Shown here piece after piece: positions 2,787 to 64,000 of a DNA stretch of 64,000 nt; position 1 is the first letter of the stretch, and the number at the start of each line of letters is the position of its first letter. Source of the stretch: Streptococcus oralis ATCC 35037 (GTDB taxonomy: Bacteria > Bacillota > Bacilli > Lactobacillales > Streptococcaceae). The DNA is taken from positions 1,318,001 through 1,382,000 of the forward strand of contig NZ_LR134336.1 of assembly GCF_900637025.1 (NCBI RefSeq), written 5' to 3'. Both the position numbers and the translations under genes were made by a program. A model generated the notes under the pieces. That model was not told where the DNA came from and made no database searches. It worked only from the letters and a program-made list of their open reading frames with translations.

Positions 2787-3437
2787 TTAAGGTAAATAGA
2801 AAATCAACCGTTCCTTGTCGAAATCAACAGCCAACTCATACTTCCCTTCTTCGTTTTGCACAATATAGCCTAAGACGACTAGACTCTCAACGAAAATATC
2901 ACGGCGTTTCTGCATCAGCTGGTCTTTTTTGAGAAACTTCAGTAAAAAGGTCGTCATATATTTGAGGGCATACTCAGGGTTAACATCTCCTAAAATATCA
3001 TAGAGTTTCTGCTGTTTTTCTGTCAAAGGATATTGGTGCTTGACCTTGTAGAAATAGTTGGATAGGGTCATCTTTTCTCTTGCAAAGTCCGTACCTTCGA
3101 CTAAAATGGCAGCATTAGTTTGATTGCGTAATTCTGTCTCATAAGTCTTCTCCAGCAAGGCTTGATAGACTGGGCTGTCCTCTCTGATAAAAATCTCTTG
3201 GTCAAGGGATAGATTACCTATCGATTCTAGAAAAGGGAGATTAAGGGAATAACGTTTGTTTTCCCTTAGGATCAAGCCTGCCTTGATAAACTCTTCCATG
3301 AGCTTATCAACTGCTACATCTGGAAACTGAGCCTTAATTTCTCGGAGGATCACATCATCATGCTGGTCCAGATAGTCCACCAAATCTATAAAAAATGGCT
3401 GTCGAGTCAAACGAGATGGGTTAAAAATCTGAATCAT
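2787..3437 (-). CDS. DUF1803 family protein
   Basis: A 216-residue soluble protein beginning MIQIFNPSRLTRQPFFIDLV, recognisable as the streptococcal DUF1803 family. The N-terminal part (residues about 1-70) looks like a small winged-helix-type fold (LIDQHDDVILREI... LMEEFIKAGLI), but no catalytic motif is seen. It overlaps the end of the upstream YiiX-like gene by 17 bp, so the two are translationally linked. AAAGGAA precedes the ATG. Function is unknown. Confidence 0.75.
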   Translation of the reverse strand: MIQIFNPSRLTRQPFFIDLVDYLDQHDDVILREIKAQFPDVAVDKLMEEFIKAGLILRENKRYSLNLPFLESIGNLSLDQEIFIREDSPVYQALLEKTYETELRNQTNAAILVEGTDFAREKMTLSNYFYKVKHQYPLTEKQQKLYDILGDVNPEYALKYMTTFLLKFLKKDQLMQKRRDIFVESLVVLGYIVQNEEGKYELAVDFDKERLIFYLP

Positions 3438-3933
3438 GAAGATTCCTTTCTTTACATTCTAAAAGAGGGGATGCTGCTAGTTGACTAGGATTGGTCCCTG
3501 GCTGATTCAGAGGCACAGGAAATTTGAGTTTCCTGTAATATTCCCTCCAAAAATCACTAATCTCCTGCTCCCCATCACCAAATTTCATGGGAATAGTTTC
3601 AAAAATCGGTAGGATTTCAGCGATATACTGGGAGCAATAAAAGCCATTCCCATCCGGATAAAAAGAGGCATTATAGGGTGCACCCAAATGTTTGCTAGCT
3701 CTCTCCTTTACCAAGTCAGCTTCCAGCTCTGGATAGACATAAAGATCGTAGAGATGAGTTGGTTCAAAAAATTCAGCCGGTTCTTGACAAATGACACCAG
3801 CTTGTCCACTAGCATGGTAAATGAAACCGTCCAAAAAGATGGCTACATGACTATAGTTCCCAGTAGAATCCTGGATAGCCTGACCCATATCTGAAAGGTC
3901 CTTCACAAAAATCAAATCGCCATTTTCTAACAT
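3421..3933 (-). CDS. YiiX/YebB-like NlpC/P60-superfamily hydrolase
   Basis: 170 residues. Visible features of the permuted papain-like (YiiX/YycO) family are the N-terminal GDLIFV strand, YSHVAIF with the putative catalytic His (about residue 29), and GFYCSQYIAEIL with the putative catalytic Cys (about residue 99). Families of this type cleave amide bonds in peptides, lipids or cell-wall material. There is no signal peptide, so it probably acts in the cytoplasm. AGGAGAG precedes the ATG at 3933. It forms a two-gene unit with the DUF1803 gene. The substrate is unknown. Confidence 0.75.
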   Translation of the reverse strand: MLENGDLIFVKDLSDMGQAIQDSTGNYSHVAIFLDGFIYHASGQAGVICQEPAEFFEPTHLYDLYVYPELEADLVKERASKHLGAPYNASFYPDGNGFYCSQYIAEILPIFETIPMKFGDGEQEISDFWREYYRKLKFPVPLNQPGTNPSQLAASPLLECKERNLHDSDF

Positions 3934-4055
3934 CTTTCTCTCCTAGAAAAAAAGGAGCCGAAACCCCTTTAGCTATATGGAAAACACCGTTTTCTCGTGT
4001 CAATCTCCAGTCAAATAATTACCATTTAAATAATTCATTAACTATATTATAAGAA

Positions 4056-6894: not shown

Positions 6895-8295
6895 CTAGTC
6901 CTCAATTTCAATCGTTTCAATTACTACATCTTCAACTGGCTTGTCCATTGCACCTGTCTCAACAGCTGCAATGGCATCCAAGACCGCAAAAGATTCAGCA
7001 TCTAGCAACTGCCCGAAAACAGTATGACGACGGTCAAGGTGAGGAGTTCCACCTTGTTCTGCATAAATCTCAGCTATTGGTTCTGGCCAGCCACCACGCG
7101 CAATCTCTTTCTTAGAGTATGGCAAATGTTGGTTTTGCACGATAAAGAACTGGCTACCATTGGTATTTGGACCAGCATTGGCCATAGAAAGGGCACCACG
7201 GATATTGTAGAGTTCTTCTGAAAATTCATCTTCAAAAGAGTCGCCGTAGATTGACTCACCACCCATACCAGTACCAGTTGGGTCTCCACCTTGGATCATA
7301 AAGTCCTTGATAATTCGGTGGAAAATCACACCATCATAGTAACCGTCTTTTGACAGAGCAACAAAGTTTGCTACTGTTTTGGGAGCCTGTTCAGGGAAGA
7401 GCTTGATACGCAAGTCTCCGTGATTTGTTTTAATGGTCGCAAGAGGACCTTCTACTGTTTCAATGTCTACTTGTGGGAAATGCAATTCTTTTTCTACCAT
7501 ACCAAATCCTTCTAAGGCATCAAAAATGCCATCTTCTTCTACTGTTTTTGTAATATAATCTGCTTTTTCTTTGATTTTATCATGGGAAACACCCATAGCA
7601 ATACTGATTCCAGCATAATCAAAGAGTTCCAAGTCATTGAGACCATCCCCAAAGACCATGACATTCTCTGGTTTCAAGCCTATATGTTCTACCACCTTGG
7701 CTACACCAGTTGCTTTGGATCCTGAAATCGGCACGATATCAGATGAATGTTCATGCCAACGCACCATGCGAAGTTTATCCGATAAAGACTCTGGTAGGTG
7801 CAAATCAGCCCCTTTATCCTCAAAGGTCCACATCTGGTATATATCCGTTTTTTCATGGAAGTTAGGATCCACATCCAAGTTTGGATAAATCGGATCAATA
7901 GCCTCACTGATCAGTTCTGTTCGCGCGGAGAGTTTGGCGTCATGACTACCAACCAGGCCGTACTCAATTCCCTCTTCCTTCGTCCAAGAGATATACTCCT
8001 CAACATCTGACTTGTCAATCTGATGTTGATAAATGACCTTACCTTTTTTATCTTCTATATAGGCCCCATTTAGGGTTACAAAAAAGTCCGGTTTGAGCTC
8101 ACGAATCTCTGGAACAACACCAAAAATACCACGCCCAGAGGCGATTCCTGTTAAAATTCCTTTTTCACGCAATTGTTTAAAGACAGTGGGAATTGTAGCT
8201 GGAATAAAACCTGTCTTTGACGTACGCAAGGTATCATCAATATCAAAAAAGACGATTTTAATCTTCTTTGCCTTGTATTTTAATTTCGCATCCAT
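6895..8295 (-). CDS. HAD-family phosphatase fused to cyclophilin-type prolyl isomerase
   Basis: 466 residues in two domains. Residues 1 to about 270 are a Cof-type HAD hydrolase: FFDIDDTL at 16-23 with the nucleophile Asp18, the GIASGRG motif II, and VMFGDGLNDLEL motif IV. Residues from about 280 on are a cyclophilin: FHRIIKDFMIQGGDPTGTG, then GSQFFIVQ and HTVFGQL. This fusion is typical of streptococci. A cytoplasmic role coupling sugar-phosphate or nucleotide dephosphorylation to protein folding is only a guess. The gene has its own extended -10 promoter and leads the S1-protein gene. Confidence 0.92.
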   Translation of the reverse strand: MDAKLKYKAKKIKIVFFDIDDTLRTSKTGFIPATIPTVFKQLREKGILTGIASGRGIFGVVPEIRELKPDFFVTLNGAYIEDKKGKVIYQHQIDKSDVEEYISWTKEEGIEYGLVGSHDAKLSARTELISEAIDPIYPNLDVDPNFHEKTDIYQMWTFEDKGADLHLPESLSDKLRMVRWHEHSSDIVPISGSKATGVAKVVEHIGLKPENVMVFGDGLNDLELFDYAGISIAMGVSHDKIKEKADYITKTVEEDGIFDALEGFGMVEKELHFPQVDIETVEGPLATIKTNHGDLRIKLFPEQAPKTVANFVALSKDGYYDGVIFHRIIKDFMIQGGDPTGTGMGGESIYGDSFEDEFSEELYNIRGALSMANAGPNTNGSQFFIVQNQHLPYSKKEIARGGWPEPIAEIYAEQGGTPHLDRRHTVFGQLLDAESFAVLDAIAAVETGAMDKPVEDVVIETIEIED

Positions 8296-8324
8296 CTCTC
8301 TACCTCTTTTCCATCACTCCTTCC

Positions 8325-8333
8325 ATTATACCA
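8325..8333 (-). promoter_or_regulatory. extended -10 promoter of the HAD-cyclophilin gene
   Basis: The minus strand reads TGGTATAAT, an extended -10 element; the -35 region is weak. GAGGTAGAG precedes the ATG at 8295. Confidence 0.6.
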
Positions 8334-8380
8334 TAAAGCTGTTGAAATTCCTTTTTTGGAAAAAGATGAAAATCCTATCA

Positions 8381-8413
8381 AAAAGAGAGCCAGTATAACC
8401 AGCCCTCTCTTTT
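8381..8413 (-). terminator. terminator of the polysaccharide operon
   Basis: On the minus strand AGAGAG..CTGG / CTGG..TCTCT forms a stem followed by TTTTT, directly after the GH8 stop codon. Confidence 0.8.
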
Positions 8414-8417
8414 CATT

Positions 8418-9521
8418 CTAGAACATCTCTAGAGCAATCATGGTAATCATCGTTGCATCATAGTAGCTCTCTATAGGTAAATCTTGTGTAAAAATGTATT
8501 TATTTTGCTGAAGAAGTTTCAGATAGCCTTCTCCCTTGTCAGACGCATAGGTAATCGGTGCCAAGAAGCTACCTGCCTGGTATTGATTGAGGGCCGTTCC
8601 ATTCAAGTCATATCCCGCATAAATACGCTGCTCTTTCATAAAGAAATCCATCATCTTTTGAACGAGTTTTTGGCTTCTTTCATCCTGGCTCTGAGACAAG
8701 TGATAAGGCAAACGGCAAGCGTTATAAGAATACGCTCCATCATATTGAGATTCGATAGTATTAGCATCAACAAGACGTGCCCCAGACTTCTCAGCCCAGA
8801 TAAAGTCTGGTAAGAGGCCCGTTTCAGAATGAGAACTGATTTGCTCCAATTGCCCAAGCATCTTATCCTTAACATCTAACCACTGTTTGTTTCCAGTCAG
8901 GTCATAAAAAGATTGGAAATAGTGGGGAAGAGTATCAGACGTCCGCATCAAGTAATAATAATCGGAATCCTTGTTTGCCCAGTTCCCTACTGTCAGGACA
9001 CCAGTTTCCTCGTTGTAATTGTACTTAAGGATATCATCCAAGATTTTTTTAGCTTGCTCTTGGTATTCCTGCGCCTTATCTGGCCACTGCTTGGCAGCTT
9101 CAATCAAAGAATAAGCGATGTAGAGATCACCATCGGTTGCGTTTTGCTTCTCAACCGATTCGCTACCATTTGTGATTACTTGCTTCCAAGACATCAACTG
9201 CGTTCCCTCGATACGATGATTTTGGTAATAGCGATAAAGGTTATCAAAATCTGCTTGTGTTGCTTGCCCTTTTTGGGCTGCTAAAACCGTTATGAGCATG
9301 CCGTAACTTTGGGCCTCTGATAAAACTGTTGTTTCCTCAGAATCATTCGTCGTACGAACATAAGACTGATCGCCTTTTGTAACAAGAAACTGCTGGCTCC
9401 ATTGGCTGTAAATTCGATTCCGCATCTCGATTTTAGTCCTTCCTCTTACTAAAAACAAGGCTAAACAAAAGATAGAAAGGATGAGCACAAACCAGACATA
9501 TTTTAATTTATTCGTTTTCAT
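8418..9521 (-). CDS. membrane-anchored glycoside hydrolase family 8 (BcsZ/PssZ-like)
   Basis: 367 residues. One N-terminal transmembrane anchor (about 8-26) puts the rest outside. The GH8 signature SEAQSYGM contains the probable proton-donor Glu69, and NATDGDLYIAY holds Asp130/Asp132 expected in the active site. GH8 enzymes cleave beta-1,4 glycans such as cellulose or chitosan, and in synthase-type operons trim or release the new polymer (BcsZ, Listeria PssZ). It is the last gene of the operon, 8 bp after the GT2 gene. The substrate is inferred to be the polymer made by the neighbouring synthase. Confidence 0.9.
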   Translation of the reverse strand: MKTNKLKYVWFVLILSIFCLALFLVRGRTKIEMRNRIYSQWSQQFLVTKGDQSYVRTTNDSEETTVLSEAQSYGMLITVLAAQKGQATQADFDNLYRYYQNHRIEGTQLMSWKQVITNGSESVEKQNATDGDLYIAYSLIEAAKQWPDKAQEYQEQAKKILDDILKYNYNEETGVLTVGNWANKDSDYYYLMRTSDTLPHYFQSFYDLTGNKQWLDVKDKMLGQLEQISSHSETGLLPDFIWAEKSGARLVDANTIESQYDGAYSYNACRLPYHLSQSQDERSQKLVQKMMDFFMKEQRIYAGYDLNGTALNQYQAGSFLAPITYASDKGEGYLKLLQQNKYIFTQDLPIESYYDATMITMIALEMF

Positions 9522-9529
9522 AGAACCTC

Positions 9530-10840
9530 CTATCCTGCAAATCGCTTGGTTTTAACCCACTTGGTTTCTTTTCGTCGGAGTACCTTGTCCAGAACGATTG
9601 AAGAAATGGAATCAATGGAAACAACGATAAACATCTGTGCATAAGTGAAATAGGCAGCCAAAGCCAACCAGATTTGCTTTGTAGTAGCTTGTCCAAATTG
9701 ACTTGCCAATGCTGTCATAATTTGCATCAAATAAAGACCAATCATGAGAATCCAGTTAAAGAGCATGAGCTGGGCGATGTAGATATTGTCCGCATCAAAA
9801 GCAAATGGAACCCTGACATCTGGGAAGAAAAGATTAAGGCAGATCGCTAGCACATTCGCTAGGAAAATCAAATCCGATAGGACAATGGCAAAGTTAAACC
9901 AAAAGAAAACACAAGAATAGTTAAAGACTTCTAGTTTAACGCGCCAGTTTGCTCTGCCAAATAGATGCTTAAAGTTTGAGAGAACAACTTCATAATTTCC
10001 TTTTGCCCAGCGTTTTCGTTGCATATAGTAACTCTTTAAAGTCTCAGGTTCTTGTTGGAAAGCCTCTGAGTTATAAGCAAGGGCGATCAATTTACCACTC
10101 TGCATGATTTTGAAGGAAATATCGGTATCCTCGGTTAAGGCACCATTTTTCCAACCACCGATACTCTTTACAAAGTCGGTTTGAATGATAAAGTTGGTTC
10201 CTGGGATACGCCCAATTTTAAAGAGATGCCACATCCCAACGTGGTGCACGCGCTGAGTAACAACGATTTCCTGGTTGATACAACGAGTCAAGAAATTTTG
10301 ATTGGCATTTCGAGTCTTGTTGCGGCCGAAAGATGCCACATGACGTTCTGGATCCTTCATCACTTCTTTGACAAGGAAATAAAGGGCATTTTTTTCAGGC
10401 ATGGCATCCGCATCATAAACACAGATGTATTCACCTGTTGCCATCTCCAAAGCATCATTTAGAACGCCCGCTTTTCCTCCCGTACCAGTACGGTCGATAA
10501 TGGTTAGATTTCTTCCTGCATATTCAGGCATGGCTTGTACAGACAAACATTCTGCATAGATGTTATCCGAACAGTTATCCGCAAATAAGAGCAACTCCAC
10601 ACGGTCGTGAGGATAGTTCATATCCAAGATAGCTTTTGCCGTTTGGGCAATAACCACATCCTCATTATGGGCAGGAACAACAATGGTGACCTTCGGATAA
10701 TAAGGTAGCGGCGAAGTGTCTACACGAAAATCACTGTGTTTAAACCAAAAGTGTACTGCCGAAAAGAGAATTACCAAGCCCCAAGCTAGAGAAATCCAAA
10801 TTGTAAGCAAGGTAAAAATCATTAACATTTGACTAATCAT
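9530..10840 (-). CDS. processive family 2 glycosyltransferase (cellulose/poly-HexNAc synthase-like)
   Basis: 436 residues. One N-terminal helix region (about 5-30), a cytoplasmic GT-A domain (VTIVVPAHNE at 51-60, the metal-binding Asp-Ala-Asp at 143-145, TED at 236-238 with the catalytic Asp, and QRKRW at 274-278) and three or four C-terminal helices (about 300-420). DxD, TED and QxxRW together mark processive synthases that polymerise and export a beta-linked glycan through their own channel. It follows a 46-residue membrane ORF, overlapping it by 8 bp. The epimerase at the head of the operon suggests UDP-ManNAc as donor; this is inference. Confidence 0.9.
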   Translation of the reverse strand: MISQMLMIFTLLTIWISLAWGLVILFSAVHFWFKHSDFRVDTSPLPYYPKVTIVVPAHNEDVVIAQTAKAILDMNYPHDRVELLLFADNCSDNIYAECLSVQAMPEYAGRNLTIIDRTGTGGKAGVLNDALEMATGEYICVYDADAMPEKNALYFLVKEVMKDPERHVASFGRNKTRNANQNFLTRCINQEIVVTQRVHHVGMWHLFKIGRIPGTNFIIQTDFVKSIGGWKNGALTEDTDISFKIMQSGKLIALAYNSEAFQQEPETLKSYYMQRKRWAKGNYEVVLSNFKHLFGRANWRVKLEVFNYSCVFFWFNFAIVLSDLIFLANVLAICLNLFFPDVRVPFAFDADNIYIAQLMLFNWILMIGLYLMQIMTALASQFGQATTKQIWLALAAYFTYAQMFIVVSIDSISSIVLDKVLRRKETKWVKTKRFAG

Positions 10841-10973
10841 GATTCACCGCCTTAAAATTTTTGTTCACTCGATGGTAAAGAATATTGTATGCAATAAATA
10901 GTATGATAAAACAAATGCCAAAGGCGAGACTGAGTCCCAAAGCAATACCAAAAAATAGTTCGGTTAAAGTCAT
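10833..10973 (-). CDS. 46-residue single-span membrane peptide in the polysaccharide operon
   Basis: The minus strand encodes a peptide starting MTLTELFFGIALGLSLAFGI, with one long hydrophobic helix (residues about 6-33) and a basic tail (YHRVNKNFKAVNHD). Support: a strong TTAGGAGGGA ribosome site overlapping the stop of the preceding gene, ATG 7 bases later, and a stop overlapping the GT2 start codon by 8 bp, which is a classic co-translation layout. No family is recognised. By position it may be an accessory subunit of the synthase, comparable in size but not visibly in sequence to BcsF-like peptides. Confidence 0.75.
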   Translation of the reverse strand: MTLTELFFGIALGLSLAFGICFIILFIAYNILYHRVNKNFKAVNHD

Positions 10974-10982
10974 GTTTCCCTC

Positions 10983-11762
10983 CTAATATTCTACAATTAC
11001 ATCTGTCTCTAGTTGACGTTTGAGATGACTGGCAACATCTGCGTAGTCTTGGTATTTATCTTTATTATCAGAGTTAATCACCAAATAGCCTGTTTGGAAC
11101 TGAATTCCTTGATTGCCATCTTCTCCATGAAAAACTAAACTGCTTAGTTTCTCCTGCAAACCATTCAAATAAAGTTCCTTCAAAGAATATTGGTTAGTAC
11201 TCGATAGAACGAGAAAATTACCATCCGAAACGTAATAGAGCTTATCGTTGTAACTCAATTCCTGAGCAATTACCTCTTGAATACGACTGAGCATCTGGTT
11301 ATGTTCTTTTGGTTTAATCTGGAAGAACAAATCTTCATGTGCCCAATGAATCAATAAAGATTGAACCGTAACATCACTTTGTTCAGTGACCATAGCTTGG
11401 TAATCTGCTCGAGCTTCGTCCTCCTGTTCTTGGACCTTTGAGGCCACCTTGAAGAAATAATAACGAACCTTAAGTAGAATCCCAATCAAAAGTGGAAAAC
11501 TGATCAATAAGAAGATCAGTTGAATGATTGGGATATAAACCACACCCGCAACCAAAACGATAAGTCCAAAGCCAAATGCTAAGATAAGGGTCCAAGTAAG
11601 CAAAAGGTCAGATAATACCAACACTGCAAACAAGGCTAAAGCTAAAAACAAGATTTGTTCTAAAATGATTGCTCGAGCATACAAAAAACAAAGCACCAAA
11701 AGAATGACCTCACAGGCAAGCAAAGCCATAAGCCAGTTTTTAAATTGACTCCAATTTTTCAT
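10983..11762 (-). CDS. membrane protein with degenerate GGDEF domain
   Basis: 259 residues. Four or five N-terminal hydrophobic helices span about residues 10-105, then a short coiled linker (KVQEQEDEARADYQAM) and a C-terminal alpha/beta domain. The segment YNDKLYYVSDGNFLVL (171-186) sits where a diguanylate cyclase has D..aRyGGDEFvil, so SDGNF replaces GGDEF; the preceding helix and the following strand pattern also fit. With the metal and catalytic residues gone, cyclase activity is unlikely. Membrane GGDEF-like proteins (for example PelD) act as receptors in polysaccharide synthesis. It lies 6 bp after the epimerase gene and 9 bp before the 46-residue ORF. Confidence 0.7.
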   Translation of the reverse strand: MKNWSQFKNWLMALLACEVILLVLCFLYARAIILEQILFLALALFAVLVLSDLLLTWTLILAFGFGLIVLVAGVVYIPIIQLIFLLISFPLLIGILLKVRYYFFKVASKVQEQEDEARADYQAMVTEQSDVTVQSLLIHWAHEDLFFQIKPKEHNQMLSRIQEVIAQELSYNDKLYYVSDGNFLVLSSTNQYSLKELYLNGLQEKLSSLVFHGEDGNQGIQFQTGYLVINSDNKDKYQDYADVASHLKRQLETDVIVEY

Positions 11763-11768
11763 TTTATC

Positions 11769-12917
11769 TTATTTCCCCCCCTTGAATTCAGATACCGAAG
11801 TCGCTGCCCCAAAGTACTGTTGAATGGATTGTACGATTCGTTCAGAGGCTCTTCCATCTCCATAAGGATTTGGTGCCTGAGACATTTGTCTATAAAGAGT
11901 TTCATCTGTTAAGAGTGCTGCCATCGCTTCTTTCACACATACTGGATCCGTACCAACTAGCTTCAACGTACCTGCTCTTACTCCTTCTGGACGTTCCGTC
12001 GTGTCACGAAGGACAAGGACAGGTTTGCCGAGAGAAGGCGCCTCTTCCTGAACACCTCCAGAGTCAGTCATGATAAAATAGCTTCTTGAAGCCAAATTAT
12101 GAAAATCAAGTACATCTAAAGGCTCAATCAAGTGAATACGATCGTGACCAGCTAAGATATCGTTTGCTGCTTCTTGCACAGCAGGGCTAAGGTGAACAGG
12201 ATAAACAACTTCAATTTCCTGATGAAGATCGACCATCTCACGTAAAGCTGTAAAGACATTTCTCATTGGATGACCTTGATTCTCACGACGATGCATGGTT
12301 ACCAATACAAGTTTCTTATCTGGATCCAATTGATCTAGAACTTCATGATAGTAATCCGATTGAACGGTTAGTTTCAATGCATCAATGGCTGTATTCCCCG
12401 TAATGACAATAGCAGACTCAGGGTGATTTTCCTTGAGGAGATTTTCTTTACTCTCACTAGTTGGAGCAAAATAAAGATCCGCTAGGTTATCAGTCATCTG
12501 ACGATTCATTTCTTCTGGAAAAGGAGAATACTTATCAAAGGTCCTTAGACCAGCTTCAACGTGGCCGATACGTACCTGATTATAGAAAGCAACTAAACTT
12601 GCTGCAAAAGTTGTCGTTGTATCTCCATGAACAAGAATCATATCTGGAAGTTCTTGCTTAACAACTGGATCAAACTTTTCTAAAATTTTTCCAGTAATAT
12701 CTAAGAGGGATTGATTTTTCCCCATAATATCCAGGTCATAATGTGGCTCGATGCTAAAAGTTTCAAGAACTTGATCTAGCATTTGACGATGCTGAGCTGT
12801 CACAACTGTGATTGTCTCAATGCTGTCACTATGTTTTTGCAATTCTAACACTAAAGGGGCCATTTTAATAGCTTCTGGTCGTGTTCCAAAAACAACCATC
12901 ACTTTCAGTTTCTTCAT
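11769..12917 (-). CDS. wecB: UDP-N-acetylglucosamine 2-epimerase (non-hydrolysing)
   Basis: 382 residues, interconverting UDP-GlcNAc and UDP-ManNAc in the cytoplasm. Seen: GTRPEAIKMAPL at the N-terminus, HGDTTTTFAA (about 95-104), HVEAGLRT with the catalytic acidic residue, FPEEMNRQ, TMHRREN and TDSGGVQEE in the nucleotide-binding C-terminal domain. It is the first gene of the polysaccharide operon. As no gene for ManNAc dehydrogenation or teichoic acid linkage lies beside it, the likely job is to supply UDP-ManNAc to the GT2 synthase; that is inference. The ATG at 12917 lacks a strong ribosome site (AGGATAG). Confidence 0.95.
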   Translation of the reverse strand: MKKLKVMVVFGTRPEAIKMAPLVLELQKHSDSIETITVVTAQHRQMLDQVLETFSIEPHYDLDIMGKNQSLLDITGKILEKFDPVVKQELPDMILVHGDTTTTFAASLVAFYNQVRIGHVEAGLRTFDKYSPFPEEMNRQMTDNLADLYFAPTSESKENLLKENHPESAIVITGNTAIDALKLTVQSDYYHEVLDQLDPDKKLVLVTMHRRENQGHPMRNVFTALREMVDLHQEIEVVYPVHLSPAVQEAANDILAGHDRIHLIEPLDVLDFHNLASRSYFIMTDSGGVQEEAPSLGKPVLVLRDTTERPEGVRAGTLKLVGTDPVCVKEAMAALLTDETLYRQMSQAPNPYGDGRASERIVQSIQQYFGAATSVSEFKGGK

Positions 12918-12939: not shown

Positions 12940-13044
12940 AAAATTTGACATATCAGATTAATCTTTATATCGAATTATTGCGCAAATCAATTAATTTGAT
13001 TATCTTAATTATTTTACCGTCAATTAATTTATATGTCAAATTTT
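12940..13044. repeat. 14-bp perfect inverted repeat spanning the wecB promoter
   Basis: AAAATTTGACATAT (12940-12953) and its exact complement ATATGTCAAATTTT (13031-13044) are 77 bp apart. The right arm contains the -35 box of the operon promoter and the left arm lies in the 5' untranslated region 23-36 bases before the wecB ATG. Paired operators for a looping regulator, or chance in AT-rich DNA, are both possible. Confidence 0.6.
13011..13039 (-). promoter_or_regulatory. promoter of the polysaccharide operon
   Basis: On the minus strand TTGACA (13034-13039), 17 bp, TAAAAT (13011-13016), a near-consensus sigma-A promoter giving about 87 bases of leader before wecB. The rest of 12918-13277 is extremely AT-rich and holds no credible gene. 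Confidence 0.75.
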
Positions 13045-20571: not shown

Positions 20572-20703
20572 TTATTTTGGCCATCCTAACCAGATAGCCA
20601 CGAGAACAAGGGCTGTGCCAGCTAAGCTTGTTAAGATAGATAAGAATTTATCTTTTTTCTCCTTGAACTGAGAAAACCTATTTTTATACTCAATGAAAAT
20701 CAA
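20572..20703 (-). pseudogene. C-terminal remnant of a small membrane protein joined to a BOX element
   Basis: Read on the minus strand, the frame ends with a coherent tail: FSQFKEKKDKFLSILTSLAG followed by TALVLVAIWLGWPK, one transmembrane helix after a basic stretch, then a stop and a terminator. Upstream the frame runs directly into the BOX element at 20685, with no ATG or ribosome site (nearest possible start is a TTG inside BOX). It looks like a gene whose 5' part was lost or displaced at the BOX insertion. An intact short gene with an unusual start is less likely. Confidence 0.4.
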
Positions 20704-25665: not shown

Positions 25666-25790
25666 AAAAAGAGACCTGTTAATCATAACAAGTCTCGCTG
25701 TTTAAGATAGTGCCGGAAAACATACTTTTCAGTATACAATTCGGAATGACGACACTATCACAGGTTTCTGCCAGCTACTCCCTTGAGTAG
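25666..25790 (-). ncRNA. yybP-ykoY manganese riboswitch with intrinsic terminator
   Basis: On the minus strand, the leader of mgtA contains CAAGGGAGTAGCTGGCAGAA, the paired partner CCGGCACTATCTT and the CAGCGAGACTTG closing segment typical of yybP-ykoY. The 3' part folds as GAGACTTGTTA / TAACAGGTCTC followed by TTTTTG (25666-25696), an intrinsic terminator sharing bases with the aptamer. Established: Mn2+ binding prevents termination and turns on the exporter. Confidence 0.9.
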
Positions 25791-34319: not shown

Positions 34320-35117
34320 TTAGTCCTGTTTAGACGAGTCTGGTTTCGTTTCTGAACTCGTTGAAGACGAACTGCTGGTTGAAGAGCCCGTTGACGAGGT
34401 CGTTGACGAAGAACTCGAGCTAGACGATACTGTTTTGGTTGTAATTTTCATTGTAGTGTCAAATGGCATAATGACGCTTGGCAAGACATTTCCATTTTTA
34501 TCGACTGCTTGTAGAGGAACAGAAGCCGAATAATTACCTGTTATCCGTTCACTCGTTGGCAAGATGGCAATGACACGATCTACTCTAGAGAGAGTTTCCT
34601 CATCACTAATAACCGTTACTTTTTCATCTGATACAGTGACTGTATCAATTTTCACACGAGAATCAATCTGACTAGGGTCAATCTCCGGCACAACGATTAC
34701 ATTATCACGTTTTGCTTTTTTACCAACCTTGACTGTTATCTTTTGCGGTGTCGCAACAGCCGTCAAACCACTCGGTAAATTTTCAATAGTCAGGGGAACT
34801 TCGATGGTTCCTACACTGGCATTGGTTAAGTCAGCTTTGACCTTGAATTTCCGAGTGCTTTCCTGCATCTCACTCGCCAAAGCAACTCTGTTTGACCCAG
34901 TCAGAAAGACGGTCACTTCAGATGTAAAACCACTGATAAAGTACTGAGCACTGTCATACTGAATATCGATTGGGACATTAAGAACCGTATTGGTATAGGT
35001 TTCTGTCCGCACCTGTCTAGCACTATTGCTATTCTGATAGTTTGTTGAAGTCGCATAGATAAAGAGGATGCAGGCGAAAAAGAAGGAAGAAATAATATAA
35101 AGACTATTTTTTCTCAT
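34320..35117 (-). CDS. cdaR: CdaA regulator CdaR (YbbR-domain protein)
   Basis: 265 residues. One N-terminal membrane anchor (about 5-24) and extracytoplasmic YbbR repeats (VPIDIQYDSAQYFISGF, EVPLTIENLPSGL, VIAILPTSERITGNYSA), then a low-complexity Ser/Thr tail ending SETKPDSSKQD. CdaR modulates the diadenylate cyclase CdaA, which it overlaps by 14 bp. The Ser-rich tail is streptococcal. Confidence 0.9.
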   Translation of the reverse strand: MRKNSLYIISSFFFACILFIYATSTNYQNSNSARQVRTETYTNTVLNVPIDIQYDSAQYFISGFTSEVTVFLTGSNRVALASEMQESTRKFKVKADLTNASVGTIEVPLTIENLPSGLTAVATPQKITVKVGKKAKRDNVIVVPEIDPSQIDSRVKIDTVTVSDEKVTVISDEETLSRVDRVIAILPTSERITGNYSASVPLQAVDKNGNVLPSVIMPFDTTMKITTKTVSSSSSSSSTTSSTGSSTSSSSSTSSETKPDSSKQD

Positions 35118-35961
35118 GTTTCAATCCTCCTAGCAAACGCTCTTTCAAACCTTGTTTTTCCTCTGATGCTGGAAGCAAGATTCTTCTTAACTCCGATTCA
35201 AACTCTTCCAAGGTCAAATCATTCTTAAAGACTCCATTATAGGTGATTGAGATTCCACCTGTTTCCTCAGAAACCACAAAGGTAAGAGCATCTGATACTT
35301 CCGACAAACCAATCGCTGCCCTGTGACGTGTCCCAAACTCCTTGGAAATTCCCGTATTTTCAGTCAGGGGTAGGTAGGCTGAAGTTACGGCAATCCGATC
35401 TTCTCTGACAATGACCGCTCCATCGTGTAAGGGAGTATTGGGGATAAAGATATTAATCAATAACTCAGAGGAAATTTTAGCATCTAGAGGAATCCCAGTT
35501 GAGATGTATTCCTGCAAGGTTCTCACTCGCTGAACTGCTACCAGAGCACCAATCTTACGAGGACTCATGTACTCGACTGATTTGACAAAGGCGCGAACCA
35601 TTTGCTCTTCCGCACTAATAGGCGCATTGTAGAAGAAATCAGTAGCTCGACCCAATCGTTCCAAACCAGTCCGAATCTCTGGTGAAAAAATAACCACCGC
35701 TGCAATGACCCCGTAGGTGATGATCTGATTAATCAACCAGGAAATGGTCGTCAAACCAATCATATTGGACAGAATCTGACCTAAAATAAAGACCAAGACT
35801 CCCCGCACCAAAATCATGATTTTGGTCCCTGCAATCGCTTTGGTAAAATGATATAAAATATAAGTCACAATGAGAATATCTATCAGATTGATGACTATCG
35901 TCCAAGGACTTGAAAACAAACTCGTCCAGTATTGTAAATTGGATAATTGTTGAAAATTCAT
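35104..35961 (-). CDS. cdaA: diadenylate cyclase CdaA (c-di-AMP synthase)
   Basis: 285 residues from the ATG at 35961 (GGAGGAGG upstream; a longer frame is rejected). Three membrane helices (about 18-95), then the DAC domain with LHDGAVIV and GTRHRAAIGLSE, the two catalytic motifs. It makes c-di-AMP, which controls potassium and osmolyte balance. First gene of cdaA-cdaR-glmM. Confidence 0.95.
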   Translation of the reverse strand: MNFQQLSNLQYWTSLFSSPWTIVINLIDILIVTYILYHFTKAIAGTKIMILVRGVLVFILGQILSNMIGLTTISWLINQIITYGVIAAVVIFSPEIRTGLERLGRATDFFYNAPISAEEQMVRAFVKSVEYMSPRKIGALVAVQRVRTLQEYISTGIPLDAKISSELLINIFIPNTPLHDGAVIVREDRIAVTSAYLPLTENTGISKEFGTRHRAAIGLSEVSDALTFVVSEETGGISITYNGVFKNDLTLEEFESELRRILLPASEEKQGLKERLLGGLKHEKK

Positions 35962-36097
35962 CCCTGGCCTCCTCCCTGTCGAAACACTTTCTGTACCATT
36001 ATACCATTTTTTGCCCATTTTTTCCCTATCCTACCTCATTTTAAATTAAGCAAAAATATGATAAAATAAACTGATTAGAAAAAACGAAGGAGAAATC

Positions 36098-60019: not shown

Positions 60020-63000
60020 TTATTTCTTAAAAATAGAGGTTCTGAAGTCGTTTGTTTGGTCAAGATAAGCTTTAAAGATTGCTCTCTTCAACTTATGAAC
60101 GGCACTATCATACTCTGGATTATAGTTGCTCCAACGAGGACTTACAGCATCCTTGAGAACAGCTTGATCCATGAGGGCTTGCAATTCACTCACTTGATTG
60201 ATGGTCTTGGTCCCATAGCTTGGCCATGGTTTTGTCGGATCTTTAAAGGTCACTTGTTTCAAGTTTTCAAACTGATCCACACGTTCTTTATACATGGCTT
60301 TCTTAAAGGCAGCCCAAGATGCATACTTGCCTTCAAATACCTTGTCCAATACAAGTTTATCGGTCACCAATCCTCGTTCTTTCCCATAGAGATTGATAGT
60401 TTGACCTTTTTGTTTGGCAGCTTCTTCGTATTGATTTGAGATATAAGGTACCATTCCATCCTTAAAGCCTTTGGCAGCCAAAAGTTCGTAAGCAATCCTA
60501 CGCCCCATAAGGTCCCCTGGCGTGCCTTTCTCACTGCTGAGAGCTGAAAAGATTGGGGCAAAGAGTTTAATGGTATAGTAGCCATTTCGTTCATAGTCGC
60601 CAGTCTGGTACTCACGAGCTGATAAGATGTTGTGGTCAATCAAACTTTCAAAACTATTCAAGTTTTGGGCCTCTGCTTCTGTCAATTCTTTGACTACGTT
60701 AGTGGCGTAAACCTCATTTCCATCTGCTGGATCTTTCACATACTTGTTCTCAATTTTTCTGAGAGCCGCCATTTTCTGGTAAACATTCAGTTTGTTGACG
60801 ATTGATTGTCCTTCGAGATATTCCAACATGTAGATGAGGTCAAACATGTTGTGGACATAGCTCTGAAGATCTGCTGCATTTTGGAATCTTTCTGTCGGAT
60901 CCAAGACTTGCAGACGGGAGCCCTCTGCACTATCTGATTTTGAGTGCTTCAAGATAGAATTTATGGTAATGGTTGCGTCACTTGGTTGGTCAGGGGCTTG
61001 CAATAAACCTTTTGCAAAGAACTCTGGTCCTAGGCCACTTCTTCGACCATAACCCCCAAGGTAGATATCCTGATCGGAATCATGGGTCATTTCATGGGTA
61101 TAAGTAATGGCTCCATCCTTGTCTAGCATACGGTAAGACATATAGTAGACACCATCCCCTGTTGCGTAGGCTCCATGCTGGTTGTGTACTACCTTATTGC
61201 CAACTGGGCCAAAGAAGTTCTTCATGGCTGAGTTGGTGCTATCAAACTTAGCCTCCACTGTAGCTTTTCCAGAGGTTGTGTCATCACCAAACTTATAAGC
61301 ATCATAAAGCAAGATGGTACGATAGAGTTTTTCACGCCCCTCATTATCTAAAATACGATACCAATAATCGTAGTGATCTCGCTGGCGTTTGGCTGTTTCA
61401 CGCGCATTTTCTTCAACAAAGTCATTGAGAGCCTTGCCCGCTTTATGCTCACTATTGCGGTAGCGATCATAAGCTCCAAATCCTAGACTAGACATGGTCG
61501 AGATGACAAAGACGGATCTCTCTGGCAAGGTCAGGAGCGGCAAGACCATATTGCGATATTTCCATGTGGCACTCGTGATGCGGTCATAGACACCGATAGA
61601 ATACTTGCTACCAGTCTGTCCTTGCTTCGTTTTCACCTCTTCGATAGTGGATTTTTCTTCGACGATGTAGGCCTTAGTCTCTGATTTAAACCAGTCATTG
61701 TTACTTGTTTTTGGTAAAAAGACTTTGCGGTAATGTTCCAGCGTGCTAAACAAATCTGTCGTTCCATGATGACTAGCAAGACTGATACCATAAGTATCGA
61801 CATTATTCTTAGCTAGAAGATTGTTAAAGCCAGATTTACCCAGCTCAATCAGGGCATCTAGTGGTGAAGCATTTCCCTTACCAAAGAAGTCCAAATGGTA
61901 CAGAACTAGGTCTTTGACATTCACCTGACCATAGCTAAAGTTGTACCAACGCTCCAGATACGCCATACCAAGTAGCAAGGCTTCCTTGTTGTGTTTGATT
62001 TTATCTACAAGATAGCCCTTGGTAACTGGGTTATCACCGGCAAGTCCAGCATCAGCTGACAAGAGCTTTTTCAAACTGTCTTCCAAATGTTGTTTTGTTT
62101 TGGCGAACTGGTCTTCTAGATAGAGCTCAGTTTGCTTGACGTTTGGAGAAATACCCAGCGTCTTTCTGATGGCTTCTGAATGATAGTCAACCTTTTGTAA
62201 GTCAGGTAAGACTTGCTTGATGATAGAAGATTGGTCATACAGGAATTGGTTTGGCGTATAGAGAAGTCCAGTATCTCCTAGACTATATTCCGCTAATTTG
62301 GCAAAATCATCCTGGTACTTGAGATCGAGTTTCTCAGATGAATGGTCCTTGTAATGCAGCAAGAGTTTGTTTGCAGTCTGTTTGTTAGAAACAATATCAG
62401 TGATGACTTGGTTGTCCTTCATCATGACTGCTGACAAGAGTTCTTTTTGATATAACAGACTGTTCTCATTGACCAGATTTCCGTATTTGACGATGGTTGC
62501 CTTGTTGTAGAAAGGTAGCAATTTTTCAATGTTCTTATAAGCCAAGGCGCGCTTAGATTGATAATGGGCAACCTTAGAAAAATCACTGTCTTTTTTGCCA
62601 CTTGTTGAGAGTGGTTCCACTGTTGGTAGAGTGAGAGGATTGATTGCTGCTTTTTTGCTTTCGATTTGGGAAGCATCTAGCATTGTTCCTCTTTCTTCAA
62701 AGGATTCCTTGCTGACGACTTCATCCTTGACCAAGGTGACATTGTAGACTCTGTTGGCCTTGCTACTGAATGTGTCCTTCACCTTCATTCCATTATAGTG
62801 GTAGCCGGTAATGGCATTTCCGTTGGTTACATTGACATCACTGAGAACATTGGTCAATCTTCCAGCATGCTGTTCCTCATTAGTTTTTCGATCCCACAAA
62901 TAGCCTGCTACTCCCGCGACTCTACCAAAGTGCTTGGCATTGTTAATATCGCCTTCAGCATAGCTATCTTGGATTTGTGCATCCTGATCTACTAGACCTG

Positions 63001-64000
63001 CAAGACCACCCACTGTCTGATCTGAACTATTTGTGTTGGATGAAATGGCTACTGTCGCTTTTGACTTAGTAAGTAAAGCCTTGTCACCTGTCAAATGACC
63101 GACCAGACCACCGATATTATAGGCAGCAGTCGTCTCATACGTGTTGATAATTCTTCCCTTGAAACTGCTCTCTGTGATACTTGATTGCTCCGCCTTAGCC
63201 AGCAAACCACCGATACCACGTTCACCTGCTAGAACACCATCAACGTGAACTTGCTTAATCTTTGTGCCATTCTGAGCTTCATAGGACAATGCACCGATAT
63301 CATCTTTCCCTGAAATGGAGACATTTTTCAGACTCAATTTTTCTACTGTGGCACTACTCAAAGTTTCAAACAGTGGTTTTTTCAAGTTGTAAATAGCATA
63401 CTGCTTGCCATCTTTTTCACCAATCAACTGACCAGTAAAGGCGCCCTTGATGTAAGATCTTTCATCAGGTCCCAGTTCCACTTCGTTGGCATTCAAACTA
63501 GCTGCTAAATGATAGGTTCCAGAGAGATTCTTGTTGATAGCTTTGACCAGATTGCTAAAGGAAGTAAAGGTTGTCGTTTCCTCTGTAGCCTTCTTAGCTA
63601 AGTAGAAGGTGAAATTATCAACATATTTATTTTCTAGCTCTTGCTGGAGTTTCTCAGCCTTGGCTGTGATTTTATAAACTGGCTGGCCATCTTTCGTTTC
63701 AGCCGTTATTGAAGCGACTGGTAGATAGACATCTTTAAATGACGAGGATTTAACCTTGACAAAGTAAGTTTCTGTATTCTTTGGAACACTGTCTAAAGAA
63801 ACATGTTGTTTGTAAGTACCATTGGTCTGACTATACAACTCCAGATCCGAAACGTTTCTTAATTCAAGTGTTTTTTCTGGATCTTTTTCTTTTGGTTTTT
63901 CTGTCGGAGTTTCCGGTTTTACTTGCTCGGTATTGCCCGTATACTCTGGAAGAGGAGCGACTTGTTCCGGTTCCACAATGGCTCCTGCTTGGGTACCTTT
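60020..64000 (-). CDS. M26-family zinc metalloprotease (IgA1 protease / ZmpB type), N-terminus outside window
   Basis: The frame is open to the window end; 1326 residues are visible. It begins with KGTQAGAIVEPE, the typical end of a G5 domain, then a region rich in GLUG-like beta repeats (IGGLVGHLTGDKALLTKSKA, VGGLAGLVDQDAQIQDSYAEG) and the protease domain with HEMTH (coding bases 61082-61096) and the downstream Glu in GLGPEFFAKGLLQA. The C-terminus FRTSIFKK fits the family. M26 enzymes are sortase-anchored through an N-terminal LPxTG and cleave IgA1, or other host proteins for Zmp paralogues. Which type this is cannot be told. Confidence 0.92.
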   Translation of the reverse strand, partial: KGTQAGAIVEPEQVAPLPEYTGNTEQVKPETPTEKPKEKDPEKTLELRNVSDLELYSQTNGTYKQHVSLDSVPKNTETYFVKVKSSSFKDVYLPVASITAETKDGQPVYKITAKAEKLQQELENKYVDNFTFYLAKKATEETTTFTSFSNLVKAINKNLSGTYHLAASLNANEVELGPDERSYIKGAFTGQLIGEKDGKQYAIYNLKKPLFETLSSATVEKLSLKNVSISGKDDIGALSYEAQNGTKIKQVHVDGVLAGERGIGGLLAKAEQSSITESSFKGRIINTYETTAAYNIGGLVGHLTGDKALLTKSKATVAISSNTNSSDQTVGGLAGLVDQDAQIQDSYAEGDINNAKHFGRVAGVAGYLWDRKTNEEQHAGRLTNVLSDVNVTNGNAITGYHYNGMKVKDTFSSKANRVYNVTLVKDEVVSKESFEERGTMLDASQIESKKAAINPLTLPTVEPLSTSGKKDSDFSKVAHYQSKRALAYKNIEKLLPFYNKATIVKYGNLVNENSLLYQKELLSAVMMKDNQVITDIVSNKQTANKLLLHYKDHSSEKLDLKYQDDFAKLAEYSLGDTGLLYTPNQFLYDQSSIIKQVLPDLQKVDYHSEAIRKTLGISPNVKQTELYLEDQFAKTKQHLEDSLKKLLSADAGLAGDNPVTKGYLVDKIKHNKEALLLGMAYLERWYNFSYGQVNVKDLVLYHLDFFGKGNASPLDALIELGKSGFNNLLAKNNVDTYGISLASHHGTTDLFSTLEHYRKVFLPKTSNNDWFKSETKAYIVEEKSTIEEVKTKQGQTGSKYSIGVYDRITSATWKYRNMVLPLLTLPERSVFVISTMSSLGFGAYDRYRNSEHKAGKALNDFVEENARETAKRQRDHYDYWYRILDNEGREKLYRTILLYDAYKFGDDTTSGKATVEAKFDSTNSAMKNFFGPVGNKVVHNQHGAYATGDGVYYMSYRMLDKDGAITYTHEMTHDSDQDIYLGGYGRRSGLGPEFFAKGLLQAPDQPSDATITINSILKHSKSDSAEGSRLQVLDPTERFQNAADLQSYVHNMFDLIYMLEYLEGQSIVNKLNVYQKMAALRKIENKYVKDPADGNEVYATNVVKELTEAEAQNLNSFESLIDHNILSAREYQTGDYERNGYYTIKLFAPIFSALSSEKGTPGDLMGRRIAYELLAAKGFKDGMVPYISNQYEEAAKQKGQTINLYGKERGLVTDKLVLDKVFEGKYASWAAFKKAMYKERVDQFENLKQVTFKDPTKPWPSYGTKTINQVSELQALMDQAVLKDAVSPRWSNYNPEYDSAVHKLKRAIFKAYLDQTNDFRTSIFKK

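Follow-up and report, generated by a model that had tools for sequence, protein, structure and literature searches.

The Listeria synthase PssC is reported to make a beta-1,4-linked N-acetylmannosamine (ManNAc) polymer carrying alpha-Gal (PMC11439720), and PssE and its Bacillus counterpart YdaK are described as proven c-di-GMP receptors (PMC4125290, PMC5422440). The Listeria hydrolase PssZ was called GH8 by its describers (PMC7479077) but is placed in GH126 by CAZy. The sugar of the Bacillus Yda product is given as unproven, with one lectin result suggesting alpha-Gal or GalNAc (PMC13274460). In E. coli, WecB and the GT2 synthase NfrB of the NGR pathway are reported as the probable source of a ManNAc glycan (PMC8669472).

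The window analyzed here, a stretch of 64,000 nucleotides from Streptococcus oralis ATCC 35037, contains an operon related to the biofilm machinery of Listeria, in which the c-di-GMP switch usual for that machinery appears to have been lost. It is fairly probable that the operon is a minimal, self-contained exopolysaccharide synthase by which a ManNAc polymer is made, exported and trimmed, and that its pseudo-GGDEF protein has moved past c-di-GMP. No description of the operon or its pieces in Streptococcus was recognized in openly licensed papers, covered mostly by title and start of the abstract, so an account may already be in print.

Operon layout and UDP-ManNAc supply

The earlier note described a five-gene synthase-type operon behind a near-consensus promoter, and both parts were confirmed, the first by open reading frames and family profiles. 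The genes are tightly packed. The first two encode WecB and a GGDEF-fold protein with four transmembrane segments, and are followed by genes for a membrane peptide of 46 aa, a processive GT2 and a GH8 anchored in the membrane (Table 1). The promoter was the top site of the scanned region, with 11 of 12 consensus positions matched. Its hexamers and the start region are conserved in two relatives in a DNA alignment from which one wrongly cut row (DD15) was left out. The terminator hairpin is absent from the consensus-scan listing, and an Rfam scan found two sRNAs in the window, none of them within the operon. Among the five operon ORFs, no transferase besides the GT2, no match to the BcsB family PF03170 and no DUF2334 (YdaL) protein were found. 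The gene set was found again, with its order conserved across genera, in oral streptococci, lactobacilli, enterococci, vagococci and lactococci, and, contrary to the earlier reading, is no speciality of the Mitis group.

Table 1. Position of the operon features in the window.
Feature	Position	Strand	Basis or remark
Predicted sigma-70-type promoter	13011..13039	-	TTGACA, 17 nt, TAAAAT; 93 nt upstream of wecB
wecB/mnaA, non-hydrolysing UDP-GlcNAc 2-epimerase (UDP-ManNAc supply)	11769..12917	-	TIGR00236 518.7 bits, cut-off 210.15
Degenerate GGDEF-fold protein, four N-terminal helices (probably TM)	10983..11762	-	domain about residues 108-258
46-aa hydrophobic peptide	10833..10973	-	ORF; 8-nt overlap with GT2 start
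Processive GT2 synthase/translocase	9530..10840	-	PF13641/PF00535; tree; structure model
GH8 hydrolase with N-terminal hydrophobic anchor	8418..9521	-	PF01270 107.8 bits, cut-off 24
Hairpin plus U run, likely operon terminator	8380..8412	-	-18.1 kcal/mol, z -3.8

Against the NeuC model the WecB protein scored 101.7 bits, below the required 235.9. The window gene is the single wecB match in its own genome (G000) at E<=1e-60, a threshold at which more divergent epimerases go uncounted, and no WecG/TagA gene was found there. For WecG/TagA, the suggestion that wecB mainly serves another pathway thus found no support. In Streptococcus the wecB copy number matches the number of candidate users: one copy in 13/13 genomes with the operon and no TagA, two in 9/9 with both, and one in 11/11 with TagA only; six further genomes have wecB and neither of the two. 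Kinship among the genomes inflates these and all other counts. In the Streptococcaceae wecB occurs in 27/27 operon carriers versus 36/120 other genomes, one of these 63 positives (G117) scoring below the family cut-off. At the order level the figures are 71/71 genomes with a GT2 match at E<=1e-60 (34 close relatives and 37 at 33-37% identity) versus 133/224 without. This co-occurrence was rejected as support because it is confounded by relatedness and by wall teichoic acid linkage units, and the argument therefore rests on the Streptococcus counts.

Of the 29 named Streptococcus loci, 28 include wecB in the stretch fetched, as do 20 of the 51 named loci from elsewhere; it was not seen nearby in the remaining 31 of these, some of which are cut by contig ends. 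All 49 genomes searched have it somewhere, and in lactobacilli this copy could serve teichoic acid. Since its place relative to the operon varies (upstream, downstream or divergent), wecB probably joined more than once. UDP-ManNAc would be the likeliest donor sugar.

The synthase, its partners and the putative product

The alliance of the GT2 with PssC and YdaM rather than with E. coli PgaC or BcsA is upheld by both tree and profile scores. The window GT2 falls in a 35-row clade (support 100/99) adjoining a separate 15-row clade of Listeria PssC and Bacillus YdaM (98/93), with a long-branch warning on the joining fork (88/75); PgaC and BcsA lie far away. It is 34% identical to PssC and about 32% to YdaM, which is about as close. 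The motif IPGTN is found in 50/50 rows of both clades and 0/5 outgroups; as a general ManNAc mark it was rejected, being absent from E. coli NfrB. Cellulose synthase profiles stayed below their cut-offs (TIGR03030, 79.1 of 699.1 bits; PRK11498, 56.1 of 992), and NodC, judged by its profile, gave a weak match of 33.2 of 550 bits. No clustering with GlcNAc or Glc synthases was therefore seen for PgaC and BcsA in the tree or, at the level of this profile, for NodC. The structure model resembles hyaluronan synthase and the cellulose synthase BcsA.

A hydrophobic ORF of 38-95 aa that ends close to the beginning of the GT2 was seen in 28 of the 29 named Streptococcus loci and in 45 of the 51 non-streptococcal ones; the 46-aa peptide is likely a small synthase subunit. 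The small ORFs that precede the GT2 in Pss and Yda loci are apparently ends of the upstream gene and were therefore neither accepted as equivalents of the peptide nor counted. In an alignment of 13 GH8 proteins, Ser68-Glu69 and Asp132 are invariant, and Glu69 is presumably the catalytic acid.

From these components, the five genes probably build and export a surface chain of ManNAc. We infer donor sugar, linkage, export route and GH8 role as follows. WecB would convert UDP-GlcNAc to UDP-ManNAc, and the membrane GT2 would polymerise ManNAc, most likely beta-1,4, a backbone made plausible by analogy. The 46-aa peptide and the pseudo-GGDEF protein would be its membrane partners, the GT2 would push the growing chain through its own channel, and the anchored GH8 may trim or release it outside the cell. 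It had been argued that export must differ without BcsB. Gram-positive cells lack an outer membrane, however, and the GT2 model is similar to the single-chain hyaluronan synthase, so export need not fail for want of BcsB.

The GGDEF-fold protein and alternative readings

By sequence or model the GGDEF fold is retained in the second protein of the operon, a relative of YdaK/PssE-type c-di-GMP receptors, but SDGNF at 179 replaces GG(D/E)EF and SYND at 170 replaces the RxxD of the I-site. No I-site Arg occurs at the aligned place in 29 streptococcal rows (one, L042, has an off-register Arg), versus 45 of 47 non-streptococcal rows with it. Five rows were left out of this count, L091 and L093 because their frames are broken or truncated, and L108, L110 and L115 because no GGD was found. 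The own genome has no Pfam-detectable GGDEF or EAL match, and among the 27 Streptococcaceae operon carriers 25 are without GGDEF and 26 without EAL. As PF00990 misses the window's own GGDEF-fold protein, a divergent cyclase could escape such counts; an in-house GGD profile missed Listeria PssE, which PF00990 matches. In the named genomes GGDEF is found in 15/49 when all matches over the Pfam cut-off are taken and in 11/49 above 95 bits. Frames of about 650-680 aa with weak matches, probably GdpP-type c-di-AMP phosphodiesterases, were not counted as cyclases. A strict rule that genomes lacking a cyclase lack the I-site Arg had to be rejected: the Arg is retained in L066, L074 and L089, where no strong GGDEF match was seen, and is missing from L105, which has several canonical GGDEF genes.

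The c-di-GMP control assumed by analogy with Listeria is thus not borne out, and the pseudo-GGDEF protein probably no longer answers to c-di-GMP in this operon, a loss of binding that we infer. It may now be either a structural subunit or a sensor of another signal. More specifically, and only tentatively, the operon may encode an oral-streptococcal ManNAc homopolymer synthase whose GGDEF-fold subunit, after c-di-GMP was lost, was rewired to another signal or became purely structural, the relic of a second-messenger switch that synthesis still needs. The obvious candidate signal is c-di-AMP, because a cdaA-type cyclase gene lies in the window.

It is doubtful that the product is a beta-1,4 chain of mixed sugars or of sugars other than ManNAc (GlcNAc, Glc or an alternation), with wecB serving no more than a side residue or another pathway. 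The sequence does not reveal the donor specificity of the GT2, its best NCBIfam profile is PgaC/IcaA (TIGR03937), though at 126.6 bits versus a cut-off of 422.3, and the solved chains closest to the GH8 are a glucanase (5xd0) and a chitosanase (1v5c). The greater closeness to PssC than to PgaC, the lack of a second transferase, the single wecB without TagA in the own genome and the company wecB keeps with the operon in several arrangements argue for ManNAc instead. Least probable of all is a decaying, non-functional operon acquired from lactobacilli. Damage does occur in relatives (a 36-aa GH8 match only in L053, fragmented GT2 and GH8 in L093, GT2 in two frames in G044), but the window's five frames are all intact, its GT2 recurs at full length, 99% identical and stop-free, in five more genomes of the genus, and promoter and start region are conserved.

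Continued c-di-GMP control as in Listeria and Bacillus, by imported messenger or that of an unrecognized cyclase, is very unlikely as well, with the I-site Arg and the cyclase genes missing as described and known diguanylate cyclase homologues reported absent from the S. milleri group (PMC12345266). The retained fold, the proven receptors PssE and YdaK, the canonical GGDEF gene of a streptococcal carrier (S. vestibularis, fragmented assembly) and the claim, cited in PMC5478684, that S. mutans gcp is a cyclase without a classical GGDEF speak in its favour.

Accounts of oral streptococci deal chiefly with glucans made from sucrose and with the receptor polysaccharides of coaggregation. If real, a ManNAc polymer made by a synthase would add to the surface glycans of S. 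oralis, S. sanguinis and other plaque colonisers, and might matter for adhesion, coaggregation and phage attachment. The locus would also offer a natural experiment on how a second-messenger-gated synthase runs once the messenger is lost. The question is testable because this pairing of synthase and pseudo-GGDEF protein is accompanied in some genomes, for example in Liquorilactobacillus, by a GGDEF gene and by an Arg at the I-site or beside it, and in Streptococcus by neither. The Pel system of the S. milleri group raises the same question (PMC12345266).

Comparison with known systems

With Listeria Pss (pssA-E) the operon shares a membrane GT2 of a neighbouring clade with IPGTN and a TM-plus-GGDEF partner, and the Listeria genome has wecB. 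Unlike Pss, it lacks a BcsB-like protein (PF03170 matches the 683-aa PssD of Listeria, L128, with 140.6 bits) and a DUF2334 protein, it includes wecB, its GT2 stands outside the PssC clade, and its SYND contrasts with RTSD in PssE of L128. The GT2-GH8 coupling that the earlier note ascribed to Listeria fails by the CAZy placement, as the operon has GH8 where Pss has the GH126 PssZ. In the Bacillus yda operon there is a weak GH8-family protein, which scored 16.1 bits, below the Pfam cut-off of 24.

Bacillus ydaJKLMN likewise unites a GH8-type YdaJ, a degenerate-GGDEF YdaK and a GT2, YdaM, in one operon, but includes YdaL (DUF2334) and YdaN (BcsB) in L135 and retains the YdaK-type RxxD, and wecB was not seen in the 15 kb fetched around the locus. 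E. coli NfrB is comparable as a WecB-dependent GT2 synthase proposed for a ManNAc-containing polymer (PMC8669472); it is however distant and barely alignable (21.5% over 172 aa, E 0.006), c-di-GMP-activated, and works with the outer-membrane protein NfrA. The gts genes of L. acidophilus (gtsA-gtsB-pdeB), likened by description only, also combine, in a lactic acid bacterium, a GT2 and a partner that are both membrane proteins, but the proposed receptor is a degenerate EAL protein, and neither GH8 nor wecB is mentioned in the available part of that description (PMC6123363). We regard the streptococcal operon as a distinct version of the Pss/Yda kind of system.

Operon structure and distribution

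The five open reading frames that the earlier note had assigned to one operon were all found at the claimed place on the minus strand, with gaps of 6, 9, −8 and 8 nt in the order wecB to GH8. WecB and GH8 cleared the curated cut-offs in family profile searches and GT2 scored above those of the general GT2 families. A promoter scan ranked a site 93 nt 5′ of wecB first in the region covered; a hairpin with a U run is present 3′ of GH8. The source genome is complete (1.93 Mb).

Features of the operon and other features observed in the window
Feature	Position	Strand	Remark
wecB	12917-11769	minus	ORF
Pseudo-GGDEF membrane protein	11762-10983	minus	ORF, 259 aa
46-aa peptide	10973-10833	minus	ORF
GT2	10840-9530	minus	ORF
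GH8	9521-8418	minus	ORF
HAD hydrolase fused to cyclophilin-type peptidyl-prolyl isomerase	6895-8295	minus	466-aa single frame, directly downstream of the operon
SpR20	20576-20620	minus	streptococcal sRNA family, above Rfam gathering score
SSRC10	25666-25787	minus	streptococcal sRNA family, above Rfam gathering score
CdaA-type diadenylate cyclase	35104-36018	minus	PF02457, PF19293
M26 IgA1-specific metallopeptidase	60020-63976	minus	PF07580, PF05342; 1318 aa, close to the window end

In a scan of named genomes, the best 80 of 128 GT2 relatives were examined, and the counts in this paragraph refer to these. They comprised 29 Streptococcus loci, several genera of lactobacilli, Lactococcus, Enterococcus, Vagococcus and two contigs labelled Bifidobacterium MAG, the closest GT2s being those of S. 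oralis DD24 and DD15 (98%). A GH8 match was found in 77 of the 80 loci (in one, L053, a 36-aa fragment) and the other three loci stop within or directly past GT2. The end of a hydrophobic ORF of 38–95 aa lies close to the start of GT2 in 28/29 Streptococcus and 45/51 other loci. The wecB gene, placed upstream, downstream or divergently, was within the locus in 28/29 Streptococcus loci versus 20/51 others (Lactococcus 4/4, Enterococcus 6/10 and 10 lactobacillus-type or Bifidobacterium-labelled). This is a genuine, conserved synthase operon.

The two Bifidobacterium MAG-titled contigs (L080 and L086) carry a lactobacillus-like version and are most likely misbinned. A record titled Streptococcus sinensis HKU4 (L038) holds an S. 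oralis-type operon with a 97% identical GT2, which suggests interspecies transfer or mislabelling. Five further genomes, four of family f12 (probably Paenibacillaceae) and one of f30, showed the order GH8, GGDEF, small peptide, GT2, with a GT2 identity of 46–50% and wecB absent from the fetched 15 kb.

Relationships of the synthase

In a maximum likelihood tree of 55 GT2 rows with midpoint root, the window GT2 fell in a 35-row clade (100/99) with streptococcal, lactobacillar, enterococcal and other relatives. Listeria PssC, Bacillus YdaM and others formed a separate 15-row clade (98/93), while E. coli PgaC, BcsA and three other Streptococcaceae GT2s lay outside both. Since the fork uniting the two clades was supported at 88/75, under a midpoint root and with a long-branch warning from the tool, profile scores were used beside the tree. 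The window-GT2 clade profile gave 316 bits for PssC, 303 for YdaM, 112 for PgaC and 75–78 for BcsA, in agreement with the tree, and clustering with E. coli PgaC or BcsA, which would have spoken against the proposed polymer, was thus not observed. The motif IPGTN occurred in 50/50 rows of the two clades and W[YV]KTxR[FY] in 49/50, both in 0/5 outgroups.

Within this clade, streptococcal GT2s were nested among those of Lactobacillaceae (a fork along this path had 93/79 support) and Lactococcus GT2s among the enterococcal ones, a pattern suggestive of horizontal transfer.

Locus L128 was assigned to Listeria on the 98% identity of its GT2 to L. monocytogenes proteins from named genomes and on a neighbourhood that encodes a BcsB-like protein and a GGDEF receptor; the Listeria pss genes stand in the order pssA-E. 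Locus L135 was taken as Bacillus yda based on gene order and a 728-aa upstream ORF read as topB, the gene reported directly upstream of yda (PMC13274460).

The epimerase and the donor sugar

Operon, wecB (E≤1e-60) and TagA counts were taken as from the same sample of 147 Streptococcaceae genomes, as genome labels and sizes matched between the surveys; 27 of them counted as carriers, with a GT2 match at 57% identity or more. The epimerase gene was present in all 27 carriers and in 36 of the remaining 120 genomes (p 2e-12 by Fisher's test, genomes treated as unrelated). Streptococcus genomes with the operon and without WecG/TagA had exactly one wecB (13/13), about 1 kb from GT2; those with both had two (9/9), one by GT2 and the other 1–5 kb from TagA; those with TagA and without the operon had one (11/11). 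Six Streptococcus genomes (G094, G116, G117, G123, G139 and G142) had wecB with neither. As copy counts follow the presence of operon and TagA in Streptococcus, it seems that an epimerase of its own comes with each candidate user of ManNAc. In the window genome the operon copy is the single wecB found at this threshold and no WecG/TagA gene was found, which argues against sharing with that pathway.

The Pss polymer is described as a chain of beta-1,4-ManNAc in which every second residue bears alpha-Gal (PMC11439720). Considering the wecB copy pattern and the relationship to PssC, UDP-ManNAc is likely the donor for GT2, and the best-supported one. Among the 15 Pss/Yda-type loci fetched, wecB was near GT2 in one, the Pss-type locus L132, at about 3 kb (2927-4024 and 7072-8334 of that locus).

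Signalling, export and comparison with known systems

The c-di-GMP control suggested earlier by analogy with Listeria was not borne out, as the window genome gave no match to PF00990 (GGDEF) at E≤0.01 or to PF00563 (EAL) at E≤0.001. Among the 27 Streptococcaceae carriers, a GGDEF gene was found in two, S. vestibularis AS012761 (300 contigs) and one Lactococcus, and an EAL gene in one; 7/147 genomes of the genus sample passed the GGDEF cut-off. Of 49 named carriers, 11 had a GGDEF match above 95 bits (streptococci 1/17, others 10/32), two genomes, that of S. vestibularis and a Lactococcus one, being counted in both surveys. A review reports S. mutans and S. gordonii to be without GGDEF/GGEEF, EAL, HD-GYP or PilZ domains, and cites a claimed non-classical cyclase in S. 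mutans (PMC5478684). The Pfam absence is not absolute, because PF00990 overlooks the window's own GGDEF-fold protein. Control by c-di-GMP has probably been lost in Streptococcus. Given the CdaA-type gene in the window, c-di-AMP is probably made in S. oralis.

Between the window and DD24 the pseudo-GGDEF protein is 76% identical, GT2 98%, the peptide 100%, WecB 94% and GH8 92%; with DD15 it is 93%, versus 96–98% for its operon neighbours. This quicker divergence would be compatible with relaxed constraint or with adaptive change.

None of the five operon proteins matched BcsB (PF03170) or DUF2334. The earlier note was right that the operon has no BcsB gene, and its conclusion that export must therefore differ was not supported. 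The predicted GT2 model (pLDDT 87.3) resembled hyaluronan synthases and BcsA in the Foldseek top ten (E 5e-16 to 3e-15), which also included the mannosyltransferase PcManGT, with TM by query of 0.52–0.65 and an often large rmsd. Hyaluronan synthase exports its product through its own channel, and the cell has no outer membrane that a chain would need to pass; the lack of BcsB would thus in itself be no obstacle. The nearest solved chains of GH8 are 5xd0 (glucanase) and 1v5c (chitosanase), and it keeps Glu69 and Asp132, two residues that do not vary across 13 aligned GH8 sequences; the enzyme therefore probably acts on a beta-1,4 chain, and its N-terminal helix would keep it outside the membrane.

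We consider it fairly probable that the operon encodes an exopolysaccharide synthase using UDP-ManNAc whose c-di-GMP response was lost, a reading tempered by the modest support for the joining fork and the non-absolute Pfam absence. For the E. coli NGR glycan, a pairing of WecB with a GT2 synthase has been published (PMC8669472), although its NfrB is not a close relative of the window GT2. The pss and yda operons carry BcsB and DUF2334 proteins, whereas the window operon has neither; it is a variant related to Pss and Yda and a member of neither, with ManNAc as the likely donor.
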